64,000 nt of DNA, from NCBI GenBank assembly GCA_018857735.1, contig JABMCL010002637.1, positions 1,187,001-1,251,000 on the forward strand, in the 5' to 3' direction. Below, piece after piece: positions 28,901 through 49,900 of this stretch. Source of the DNA: Alviniconcha marisindica. Its lineage: Eukaryota; Mollusca; Gastropoda; Provannidae. The position numbers and the translations under genes are program-made. The notes below the pieces were generated by a model. The model did not search any database and was not told where the DNA came from. It saw nothing but the letters and a program-made list of their open reading frames with translations. The stretch's first letter is position 1, and the number at the start of each line of letters is the position of its first letter.

Positions 28901-31900
28901 TTCCTCCCTCTGCACACACATACATACACACTCGTTCTACCTTTCATAGTCAATTTTTACTAAAATCCTTGCAGGAAATAAGCATTATGCCTGTTGCCTG
29001 TGTTTGTTGGCAGATTGGTGTGATCGGGTTGTCAGACAAACCCATGTACCCTCGCCTGGACCCCTGTCTACCTCACACTCTGGTCCCGGCCACCTTCGAA
29101 ACTCGCATCTACTTCAGCAAGTTCATCGACAGCCTCGAGAAGCAGGACAGTAAGTGCTGTGTTGTCAGTCATGTGTTGCATGCAGTACAGAAAAACTAAA
29201 ACTGGATGAAATGTTGCGTGTAGTACTGGTGGGACTAGCTGATTGACGACAGCCGTGAGAAACAGGACAGTGAGTGGGAATGAGAGTGGGTTCCCTCATG
29301 TTACATACACTTGGAGGATGAGCTGGTAGACAACAGCCTGAGAAGCGGGATGAAGAATGCAGAGTTTGTGTCACTCATTAATGTTACATGCAGTAACGGG
29401 GCCAGTCAGTCAATCCGTAGACGGCTACTTGGAGAATAGAGTGACAGAGTGTGGTCGTGTCATGTGACATGCAGTAGAGGGGCCAGTGAGTCAGTCTGTA
29501 GACTGCTATTTGGAGAAGCATGACAGAGTGTGGTTATGTCATGTGACATGCAGTAAAGGGGCCAGTCAGTCATTAGTAGAAGGCTATTTGGAGAAGCAAG
29601 ACAGTGAAAGTCATGTGATGTTACATGCAGTAGAGGGGCCAGTGAATCGGCCCGTAGACTGCTATTTGGAGAAGCATGACAGAGTGTGGTCGTGTCATAT
29701 TACTTGCAGTACAGGAGCCAGGCAGTCATTAGTAGAAGGCTATTTGGAGAAGCAAGACAGTGAAGGTCATGTGATGTTACATGCAGTAGAGGGGCCAAAC
29801 AATTCATGTTTTGTTTGCATCTGTGTATGTTTTTAATCATGTTTGTTTTGATGCTGAGTGCTTGTTTTGCTGTTTTAGCCACCACAAACCACTCGCTGGG
29901 ATTCCTGACGGCATTTCAGATGATTGAAGATGTCCTCATGGATGGTAGCACACTGTCAGGTGAGTCCTCATTCACTCTCATCTTAATCTTACATGCTACA
30001 TGCCTTTGGGGCATTATTCCAATGAGCACAAGGTTGTGTGTACAAAGATGCCTTTCCTATGTCTAATCAGTTGCAGAGTTGGCAGGACCCTTTTAAAGAT
30101 TGCATTAGTTTTAGTAAGAAACAAAACTGGTTGACCTTTTCGGGGGGTGGGGGAGGGATAAAAATGTTTTTTGCTTCTTGTTTTGTTTTGTTCTTTATTC
30201 TTAGATGCAGTTTGCCAAAGGCAGTCATGGAAATAATTCTTGAATGTCCTGGTAAAGCAGCATCACCTGGTACCCTGGCACACCTTTAGTTGACCAGGCG
30301 TTCAGTGTCCTGTAACTGACTCTCTGCAGCAGGGAATTAGTTCAGTTACCTGGTGTCTGATTAAGAGTGTGTGTTTTGCGGCCTGGAAGTTCAGGGAAGA
30401 AGTAGAACTTCATGAATCTGTTTATTGATGCAGACAACGCCATGATTCTCTACGTGAGTCGTGGGCTGCTGTCCTCACTCACTGATGCGCGGGAAGTGAT
30501 GGACGTTGTGTCGCTGCACAATGCTCGCACAGGTCATAAGGTCATCATCAACACCTATGCTGTCATTGATGGTGAGTTGTGTCATGCATGATTCTGCTTT
30601 CTTGGGAATGGGATTTGACAAATGACACGGGGAGATGGGGGGAAAGTAGTCTTGCCGGTACACAATTGTAACAGAAACTAGAACTCTGTAACAAAAACTG
30701 AAACTGTTTCACTGACTTCAGGTGCAGATCTACTTTGTGGGGTAACTCGGCCTGTTTTCTTGTGATCATAAACAAGCAGGCATTTCTGTATGTGCTGGCC
30801 ACTGATTTATTGTATCATTTTCCAGATGGTAAACCAATCATGTACGAGAAGAGCTTCATGCAGGACATAGCATACCAGAACTTTGCCAAGTATGATGTCA
30901 AGTATCGCCTCAAGACGCCTGTTGTGGTGAGTGGTGTTCATGCCTGTCTGCATGCATTGTTCCATACATGTAGTGTGCAGGGCATGCATCTAACAAAAAC
31001 AAAAACACTGGCAGTTATGAGTAGTTTGTTTCATGACATTAAATCCAGTATTTGGTCAGAAATCCTGATGCAGTCTATCTTTCAGGCTTACTTTTAAGAT
31101 CAGGAATTTCCATGGGGTTGCAAGTTGCAATAATAATAATAATAAAGGATGTTTACAAAGTGCCTGATTTATTGAGGAACATGATAGCACTAGGCGTGTC
31201 CAATAGCAAATCACTAATCAACAGAATAAATGAGCACACCCACTTGGACAAACCCTCCAGGCAGACACACACACATACATGGTATTAATAATAATAATAG
31301 GGAACTTATAGAATGCTTTCGGTATCTCAAAGCGCTTTACAAATTAGAAACATACAATGCACAAATACCCATAATTATACAAATCAATAGTATACAAGCG
31401 TACAAAACATTAAAAAATTAGCAAACATCTTCGTACAAAACTCGCCCTGATATAACTGTACCGGTTGACTGGGCGTAAAACACCAACTTACTTACTTCAT
31501 ACAAAACATGGCAAAAACACATACACACAAAACTGCGAACACACACATGCGCGTGCACACACACACACACAAAGGATTGCATGCACACAATGCCAATAAA
31601 AAGCACACACACACATGCACACACACACAGCTGAAGAGGAGATTTGGGGGGGGGGGGGGGGTTAAAGACTAATTTGAAGGCAGGGACTGTGACACACACA
31701 CACACACAGATTTGTGCAGCAGAAAAGCTATTACTGATCAAAGTACTGTTCGAAGAGGAAAACATGCCACTATTTGTGTGACAGTGAAACATGCTGTGTT
31801 TTCAGCGCGGCATCATGATGGCCATCAACTCGACACAGGACCTCAGCTCCAGTGTGGGGCGTTTCTATCTGCCGCTGAATCGCACAGCACAGGATGATCC

Positions 31901-46900: not shown

Positions 46901-49900
46901 TGGGTTGCCATCTTTAGGGTTGTTGTGAAAGAGGGGTTCTGCTGTTTGTTACCTGTACTTCACCTGTAGGTTTGATGTGTTTTTAACTTTTACTCCAGCC
47001 TGTGTGTTGATTGTGTTCTGATAAAATGTGTTTGTCGTGGTTGAGTGGGCGTAAGGAAACAAGTTCCTCTTCCTCCACCGTTGGTGCCAGGTTTGACTTG
47101 ACTTGGTTTGACTTTTGGATGCAACTTCACTTGGTTTGACTTTTGGATGCAGCTTGATGCAGTATGACTTGGTTTGACTTTCTGATGCAACTTGGTTTGA
47201 CTTGTGGACGCAGTTTGATGCAGTATGACTTGGTTTGACTTTCGGATGTAACTTGACTTGGTTTGACTGGACCTCTTTAGAGCTGAAAGTTTTCAGGGAC
47301 TCCATGCAGTATGGTGGACTGCTGGTGTTGCCAGGTTTGATTTGGTTGTGTTTCCAGGGACTGTCTGGGTGTGGTGGACTGCAGGTGACTTGGTTTGACT
47401 TGACTTGGCTGTGTTTTCAGGGACTGTCTGGGTATGGTGGACTGCAGGTGACTTGGTTGGTTTGACTTGACTTGGCTGTGTTTCCAGGGACTGTGGGTGT
47501 GGTGGACTGCAGGTGACTTGGTTTGACTTGACTTGGCTGTGTTTCCAGGGACTGTCTGGGTGTGGTGGACTGCAGGTGACTTGGTTTGACTTGACTTGGC
47601 TGTGTTTTCAGGGACTGTCTGGGTGTGGTGGACTGCAGGTGACTTGGTTGGTTTGACTTGACTTGGCTGTGTTTCCAGGGACTGTCTTGGTGTGGTGGAC
47701 TGCAGGTGACTTGGTTTGACTTGACTTGGCTGTGTTTTCAGGGACTGTCTGGGTGTGGTGGACTGCAGGTGACTTGGTTGGTTTGACTTGACTTGGCTGT
47801 GTTTCCAGGGACTGTCTTGGTGTAGTGGACTGCAGGTGACTTGGTTTGACTTGACTTGGCTGTGTTTTCAGGGACTGTCTTGGTGTGGTGGACTGCCAGT
47901 GGTGCCAGGTTCAGAAGGATGGACAGACGCCGCTCAAGTCTCCCTACTGCGACTCCCAGCGTGTGTGCTTTGGTGGTGTTGTTGGTGCCCATTCTCCCTA
48001 TGGTGACGAGATCAGTGGTGAGTGCGGACTGGGAGCTCTGATTTTGTGTCTTGTGTGTGTGTTTGTGTGTACAGGTGTGTTTCTCATGTGGGCATGTTTA
48101 TCGTGTGAGCGTGCTTGTTGTGGAAGTGTGTCTGTTGTGTGTATGTTTGTTGGGCGAGTGGGTTTGTTGTGTGAGTGTTTGCTGTGAGTGTGTTTGTTGT
48201 GTAAGTGTGTTTGTTGTATGTTTGTTGTGAGAGTGTGTTTTTCACGTGAGTGTGTTTGTCATGTGAATGTGTTTATCATGTGGGTGTGTTTGTCTTGTGA
48301 GTGTGTTTGTCATGTGTATTTTACAACCATTATGGGCGCAGATTGTCCAAAACAAAATGATCTCGTTCCAAACTTAGAAACCAAGAGGAAAATATTTCTG
48401 TGCATCTAATGCTGTGACTAGCTGTAATATGAAAGGTAGCAATGCATCAGAGCTTTGAAAATTTGATAGAAAATGTTTAGGACCATGTTCAGCACCTCAC
48501 AGTAAGTCCTATGCACTCATGGTTTATGCTTGCCTCACCCATTCACCACATTGTCATTGTTTCTAACCGTGCCGGGTTTCACCTTTGGTGACAGCAGAAA
48601 GTGCAGAGATGGACACGGTGACGATGAAGAGCACGCCGGTTGGTCCGGTGGCTGGGGGAATCATGGGCTGCTTCCTGCTGCTGGCGCTGGGCGTGTACTG
48701 CTATCGCCACCACATCCACCGCCACTCCCACCAGTACGTCAGCACCCTGCCTGACAACCCCCATCGAAACTCACACTACTACGAGGATGAGCCAGAACCA
48801 ACAGATGACACCACTGCAGGTGAGGAGGGTTTGCCACTTTTCAGGCCTTACTTCATATGCTGTGACCTGCAGCAAAGGAGAGAGTGAGAGCAAGGTGTTT
48901 TGAAATCAGAGGTTTGATGGAGGCATCTGGTCAGGCTGGAGGAAGACTTTTTGTGTTTGTGTTTTAAATGCTGCCTGAAATTTCCTGTTTTGTTGGTGTG
49001 GGCTTTTTTTTTACTGCCCAAAAAAGTTGAAAATCGGCCTGAAGGCAGAGATTGTCATAGCTACTGCTTTCATAAAATTTTGCAGATATATATGTATATA
49101 TATATATATATATATATATATATATATATATATATGCATGTTTTTGTTTGTTTTGTTTATTGTTTTGTTTTCTTCTCTCTCTGACATCTCTGCTTTATTT
49201 AAGTGGAGGAGACCAGTTTACTAAGGGGGGTGTTGCTGCCTCAACTGCTGAAAAGGGCACTGCCCCTGTATCCTGGCTGTTTGTTGTTGTTTTTCAGGAG
49301 TTGTCCTTTGTGAAGGGTTCACTTCCATGTCATTGTTTTCACTCTCTTTTACTGTAGGGCATACCAATTCTCACTCTCTTTCACTGTAGGTCATACCAGT
49401 TCTCACTCTTTCACAGTAGGTCATACGAATTCTCATCTTTCACTCTAGGTCACTTCACTACTGATTCTGATAATCTGCTTCACTGTAAGCCACACCAGTC
49501 ATCATTGTTTTCATGCTTTACTTGGCTGTTTCAAGGTCACACCAACTTTGTGCTGGCTTCCTTTGAGAACCCGGCCAGCATCTCGCCGTACCGCGTCAAC
49601 ACATCGTACCGACGTCCGGCTGGAGGGGACAGCGACCACGGCTACAGCACCATGACACCGCATGAGGACTCGGAGCACGCCAGCCTCCCCTGCCTGGACC
49701 CCCACTCCATCGCCAAGGACCGCTTCAAGCCCACCCCTTACTCCTCCATGCTCTCCCACCCCCCGGTCTTGCCCCCGCCCCCTAGCTCCTCCAGTCGCCG
49801 CAGCCGCAGCCCCACCCCGCCCCACACGCGGCTGTCCACCTACACGCCCATCCCCGAACAGACTTGCCTGACCTCTGATGTGGGGTCGCCCGTCCCGGGG

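Follow-up and report, generated by a model that had tools for sequence, protein, structure and literature searches.

In the mollusc Alviniconcha marisindica, the edges of several exons of the gene for CACHD1 are repeated in tandem within the adjoining introns, so that genuine splice junctions stand beside arrays of decoy splice sites. The gene lies in a window of 64,000 nucleotides (contig JABMCL010002637.1, positions 1,187,001 to 1,251,000, assembly GCA_018857735.1), and comparable arrays were found in myosin and dynein genes of the same assembly, where about one in 13 of the sampled junctions carries tandem copies of itself in the adjoining intron. Arrays occur at junctions as they do within introns, and unlike in coding sequence. 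We consider it likely, with a probability of about 0.7, that they are minisatellites produced by blind tandem duplication straddling a junction, and that they are tolerated since the copy bordering the exon stays intact. All results refer to one assembly and to CACHD1 plus two gene families, amounting to about 300 kb of genome sequence; the assembly that contains the window comprises 818 Mb in 2,806 contigs.

The CACHD1 gene model provided well-defined junctions for this analysis. The 26 exons present in the window form a single open frame of 1,177 amino acids, whose product is 93% identical to residues 183-1360 of the Babylonia areolata CACHD1 protein (P0001), the alignment containing one gap of one residue. 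The window contains nothing that corresponds to the first 182 residues, at the N-terminus, of the Babylonia protein. A Nucella lapillus protein gave a 90% match over half of the CACHD1 query, and the best solved-structure match of the product was 8s7c, VWFA and cache domain-containing protein 1 (E 4.8e-248). The protein alignment with four orthologues is continuous across the 25 exon-exon junctions. This continuity of residues through the junctions, together with the reading phase, closely fixes the CACHD1 splice sites.

Each of the 51 CACHD1 junctions within the window was represented by a 60-mer (40 exon and 20 intron bases) and aligned with the adjacent intron over a length of up to 1.5 kb, using shuffled introns as controls. 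Significant junction-spanning copies were detected in the adjacent intron at seven junctions: the exon 4 donor, the exon 14 acceptor and donor, and the acceptors of exons 15, 17, 23, and 24 (see the table). At these seven arrays, Tandem Repeats Finder (TRF) reported periods of 28-78 bp. Copy number is about 2-9, in rough agreement with an earlier note on this DNA, and the copies extend 20-53 bases into the exon, a somewhat wider range than the 20-45 bases given there. The statement of that note that only the copy bordering the exon continues the protein frame holds for CACHD1. It had listed eight junctions, however, and the last of these, the acceptor of the last exon, failed the junction-copy test. 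The unit of the array upstream of this exon matches the exon edge over 12 bases (11/12; shuffle P = 0.012), and the acceptor of the unrelated exon 11 scores equally against that unit; we therefore rejected it as an eighth junction array, and regard it as a decayed junction case at best.

The individual arrays also bear on where the copies came from. At exon 15, additional AGs are found 28, 56, and 84 bases upstream of the genuine acceptor, and each 28-bp unit seems to bring its own acceptor. In the genome search, the exon 17 array with its exon edge matched only itself, and the exon 24 array gave two weak matches (69-70%) outside its own locus, which argues that both arrays are of local origin and do not derive from a common dispersed element. 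Within the exon 23 array, the copies in the middle show only a weak match.

Tandem arrays and related features of the CACHD1 gene (positions are those of the window; TRF, Tandem Repeats Finder)
Feature	Position	Strand	Unit and copies	Exon bases in the copies	Genuine site and remarks
Exon 4 donor array	29247..29797	+	about 78 bp	up to 23	donor after 29149; TRF 29381-29797
Exon 14 acceptor array	36383..36804	+	about 61 bp, 110 bp composite	22	exon start 36782
Exon 14 donor array	36889..37382	+	about 56-66 bp	up to 53	donor after 36924
Exon 15 acceptor array	37603..37798	+	28 bp, 7 copies	21	exon start 37778
Exon 17 acceptor array	39286..39500	+	74 bp, 3 copies	20	exon start 39479
Exon 23 acceptor array	45844..46504	+	68 bp, 9 copies	28-42	exon start 46477
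Exon 24 acceptor array	47337..47896	+	63 bp, 130 bp composite, 9 copies	25-40	exon start 47872
Array 5' of the last exon	49339..49452	+			exon 26 start 49536; resemblance to exon edge not significant
Intron 17 minisatellite	39987..41044	+	61 bp x 17.8		comparison case; no significant exon-edge copy
Intron 20 minisatellite	43149..44181	+	110 bp x 9.4, 94% matches		comparison case; no significant exon-edge copy
CACHD1 gene	1879..49969	+			26 exons in window; based on open frame and identity to P0001

The earlier note had presented the arrays as a feature of one gene. To look beyond CACHD1, we located exons genome-wide by Pfam rows for Myosin_head, DHC_N2, and AAA_6, and read 286 kb around part of these rows. 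In a first survey, with exons taken from the Pfam rows alone, 17 of 211 junctions had copies. In a second survey, to which exons were added by means of a myosin profile, junction copies were found at 24 of 315 junctions (7.6%), and these were spread over 15 of the 19 myosin or dynein gene regions, so the restriction to one gene does not stand. Four more junctions were excluded for short or masked flanks, but were kept in the divisor (319) of the observed/expected calculation with the collapsed background described below. Acceptors (14/154) and donors (10/161) were both represented, and score thresholds of 28, 32, 40, and 50 returned 26, 24, 22, and 20 of the 315 junctions, respectively. For 240 of these junctions, neighbouring exons and the frame determined the exon edge, and the others relied on the best-scoring site alone; one counted match, the acceptor at 7003 of region L030, has an uncertain exon edge. 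Two matches of the first survey (the L013 acceptor and the L017 donor) did not reappear among the 24 of the second; a neighbouring site had probably been taken as the junction in these cases.

One example was already apparent from the rows of a dynein heavy chain gene. On contig C2353, an exon is followed by six repeated matches that all fall within model positions 126-158. In the corresponding region (L025, G000:C2353:97001-104000; 2818-3597), the 3' end of an AAA_6 exon is repeated about ten times. We also noted a different kind of repetition in a myosin region (L009, G000:C2278:139001-149000; 3786-9463), where four matches to one stretch of the myosin head (model about 119-154) are spaced 0.7-2.7 kb apart. 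These are likely to be true alternative exons of a muscle myosin, distinct from the arrays at exon edges.

The frequency at junctions has to be read against the abundance of minisatellites in the introns. In the core of CACHD1 (29014-49969), 6,244 of 17,848 intron bases (~35%) lie inside minisatellites, and these cover 18.7% of the window as compared with 18.4% of 200 kb of myosin loci. When random intronic positions were submitted to a one-sided version of the test, 1,008 of 2,844 (35.4%) passed in CACHD1, against 7 of 45 junctions; in the first survey, the corresponding figures were 28.6% and 17 of 211. We dropped this comparison and the junction depletion apparent from it, since random positions are size-biased towards large arrays, in which n copies amount to n positions. 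It was replaced by a background weighted by 1/n (collapsed), by a count of terminal units, which have copies on one side only, and by simulations. In the myosin and dynein genes, the collapsed rate was 7.2% per ancestral intron base, giving an observed/expected ratio of 1.04 (0.70-1.48, bootstrap over gene regions), and the terminal-unit expectation of 7.5% gave a ratio of 1.01 (0.68-1.45). In exon interiors, by contrast, a copy was found in 1 of 342 windows, and that window overlaps the exon part of a junction array. As the rate at junctions is close to that per ancestral intron base and exon interiors are nearly free of copies, junctions behave like intron in this respect.

These data argue against a strong avoidance of junctions. 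Nor does the excess at junctions that the earlier note had implied hold up under the size-corrected background; the comparison with random intronic positions that it had proposed as a test came close to refuting it, with the raw rate at junctions below the intronic one and the corrected ratio near unity. Between its two suggestions, a process that favours junctions or a tolerance of slippage there, tolerance is supported by the intron-like rate and the nearly copy-free exon interiors, whereas a favouring process is not established.

Tandem duplication within an exon alters the protein. A blind tandem duplication of some 25-150 bp that chances to cover a splice site, on the other hand, would still leave the exon complete and bordered by one intact splice site, the remaining copies becoming part of the intron. 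Because the exon border copy and its splice site remain, a duplication across a junction should be as acceptable as one within the intron, and by this topology the two would be selectively equivalent if the exon-bordering site still wins. Later growth on the intron side, through unequal exchange or slippage, would add further decoys, and the copies would multiply and decay as those of minisatellites do. The spliceosome would mostly pick the exon-bordering copy, perhaps by exon definition, although this choice is not an obvious one considering the strength of the decoys.

We analysed the copies themselves in the 24 arrays annotated first (7 from CACHD1 and 17 from the other genes), a set distinct from the 24 of the second survey. 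For 20 of these arrays a TRF period could be assigned, ranging from 25 to 154 bp. Copies differ by about 9-16% per base. Among the 140 decoys, 127 have kept their AG or GT, and 74 of these 127, thus more than half of the intact decoys, score within 1 bit of the genuine site on a weight matrix for which 89 donor and 90 acceptor sites of the genome were used, the array junctions themselves included. In 12 of the 24 arrays, the nearest intact decoy is in frame with the genuine site (8 expected by chance), and 5 of these 12 keep at least one stop-free frame.

Several observations weigh against purely blind duplication. In simulations of this process, the ratio of the junction rate to the collapsed rate was 0.63-0.85 and that to the terminal-unit rate 0.72-0.81, varying with divergence and unit list. 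Set against these values, observed ratios near 1.0 correspond to an excess of about 1.2-1.7-fold at junctions, with upper limits above 2, and the bootstrap ratio fell to 0.65 or below in 1.1% of draws and to 0.70 or below in 2.5%. The sample as a whole comprises only two gene families and CACHD1. Furthermore, copies nearer to the exon are closer to the genuine junction in each of the 12 arrays that have four or more copies (mean rho -0.54), among them the exon 14 and exon 24 acceptor arrays of the window, and this gradient is weaker at the ends of purely intronic arrays (88 ends, 48 arrays; mean -0.22, 60/88 negative; P = 0.006). It may reflect growth from the exon edge, or an exon end that is held still by selection; blind growth by itself does not predict it, and no other observation agrees less well with that model. 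Finally, when copies were compared only with each other (in the 12 arrays that offered three or more usable copies; gaps led to the omission of the exon 4 array), decoy dinucleotides were off consensus less often than all neighbouring positions (11/228 against 768/8,112; P = 0.018 and 0.012), and only a control with the same dinucleotides elsewhere in the units removes this low rate of change.

The excess and the similarity gradient would be accounted for by a mutational process that prefers junctions, for example a duplication favoured by DNA structure linked to transcription or splicing, in which case arrays would be commoner than expected from blind events. CACHD1 taken alone also points in this direction, with 7 of 45 junctions against a collapsed rate of 11.3% in its core, but it is the locus in which the arrays were discovered and is thus ascertained, and its frequency (7/51) does not differ significantly from that of the other genes in the first survey (17/211; P = 0.28). 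The uncorrected ratios of 1.04 and 1.01 speak against such a preference, as does the lack of a clear asymmetry between donors and acceptors. In addition, the position of the junction within the unit did not depart from uniform (Kolmogorov-Smirnov P = 0.38, with TRF periods, in 20 of 24 arrays). An earlier value of P = 0.0006 from this test was discarded, since multiples of the unit had been taken as unit length in several arrays. A mild preference, of about 1.2-1.7-fold, is possible; a junction-seeking process as the general explanation of the arrays appears unlikely to us. We are slightly more doubtful still about a broader proposal, in which junctions are preferred birthplaces of minisatellites with the exon edge as the source, and in which the resulting ladders of equally strong, sometimes in-frame decoys form a reservoir for exon extension and protein repeats.

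Could the decoys be kept for a function, either as a buffer of spare splice sites or as regulated alternative sites? The many intact and strong decoys described above agree with this idea, as does the low rate of dinucleotide change among the copies. When compared with the genuine copy, splice dinucleotides were changed in 13 of 268 cases, as against 99 of 706 for the same dinucleotides elsewhere and 1,821 of 11,249 for all neighbours (array-level P = 0.00035); changes that occurred in the genuine intron enter this comparison once for every copy, and part of the signal probably derives from them. In the copies-only comparison, the same dinucleotides elsewhere were kept equally well (27/522 off consensus, compared with the 11/228 of the decoys), and array by array no difference was found between the two (P = 0.47 and 1.0, 9 arrays). 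A variant of the retention test with the junction core masked proved unusable, as the core had apparently taken up gaps from elsewhere in the alignment and two array pairs shared a key in the per-array table. It would appear from the sequence, then, that AG and GT change slowly in these units generally, rather than that decoys are under selection, although a weak selective effect is possible. The role as a buffer or splicing regulator that the earlier note had considered is thus without clear support, and we hold it to be improbable.

An even slightly less probable alternative is that the arrays serve as a source of new coding sequence, with in-frame decoys extending exons and creating protein repeats. 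The dynein array in L025 is the best case for it, as its decoy donors at +84, +168, and +252 are all in frame and the frame stays open for 310 nt into the intron; the number of nearest intact decoys in frame, 12 where 8 are expected, also fits. However, the nearest intact decoy is unfavourable in 19 of the 24 arrays, shifting the frame in 12 and bringing stops in all three frames in 7, the aligned CACHD1 orthologues have no insertions or extensions at their junctions, and an insertion in the AAA_6 domain of dynein would likely be harmful. Assembly error, for which the assembly data offered no supporting point, is highly improbable, given that the divergence between copies and their ordered decay are unlike assembler duplication errors, that the same pattern is seen on 15 other contigs, and that the exon 17 array with its exon edge is present once in the assembly.

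Two other intronic features of CACHD1 were noted in passing. The intron 20 minisatellite is very regular and probably young. In intron 7, the stretch 31280-31460 resembles by eye part of a dispersed element (motif agcgctttacaaa), an impression formed without a search.

Splice-site-bearing minisatellites themselves are already known in human genes. The human gene IFI6 (6-16, G1P3) contains a minisatellite with multiple splice donors (Turri et al, 1995, as summarised in PMC4526556), and two downstream repeat units are reported there to serve as donors, giving rise to three mRNA species. The arrays described here resemble it in that minisatellite units bear splice sites: units holding a genuine splice site and the exon edge were found at 7 of 51 CACHD1 and 24 of 315 other junctions, and their head-to-tail arrangement and TRF periods (28-78 bp at the seven CACHD1 junctions, 25-154 bp over 20 of the 24 arrays annotated first) are those of minisatellites, with units of roughly 10-150 bp. 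They differ in that the IFI6 donors are used and belong to one gene, whereas the present arrays are known from genome sequence alone, involve acceptors as often as donors, and occur in many genes. In human segmental duplications, De Grassi and Ciccarelli (2009; PMC2812944) described internal tandem repeats at exon-intron boundaries, with changed splicing. Those boundary repeats were likewise found with TRF and attributed to minisatellite expansion; the relevant passages of that article do not raise the question of the rate at junctions relative to that per intron base, which is posed here. The earlier note's view that no named class exists for such arrays is therefore only partly correct, boundary repeats and a donor-bearing minisatellite being in print for human genes.

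Other related systems place splice sites within tandem repeats in a different manner. Introns embedded in tandem repeats have been counted in the human genome, with dual-specific splice sites in UBC as an example (PMC10809524). As described there, splice sites also lie within the repeat units, but there the repeats belong to coding sequence and a single site serves as both donor and acceptor, whereas here the copies are intronic and each unit carries one existing junction. Tandem duplication has also been proposed as a route of intron gain (PMC2891723). That route shares with our arrays the tandem duplication of exon sequence together with splice signals, but according to these accounts the new intron arises inside an exon, (PMC2891723; PMC4974935); our arrays multiply a junction that already exists and make the intron longer. 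Among the listed titles and abstract openings of the open-licence literature, none reported such arrays at junctions throughout the genome of a mollusc. What is new is thus their frequency in an animal with dense minisatellites, the finding that donors and acceptors are treated alike, and a measured background that shows no avoidance of junctions.

Arrays anchored to an exon give an orientation to the birth of a minisatellite: the original copy, the end at which duplication occurred, and the decay of the copies can be read, information that is normally lost. They also raise a question for splicing, as about one in 13 of the sampled myosin and dynein junctions stands beside decoys and the gene must still be read correctly. 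Gene predictors and isoform callers may call false exons at such arrays. If the decoy donors of the dynein array in L025 were used, they would add 28-residue repeats to the AAA_6 domain.

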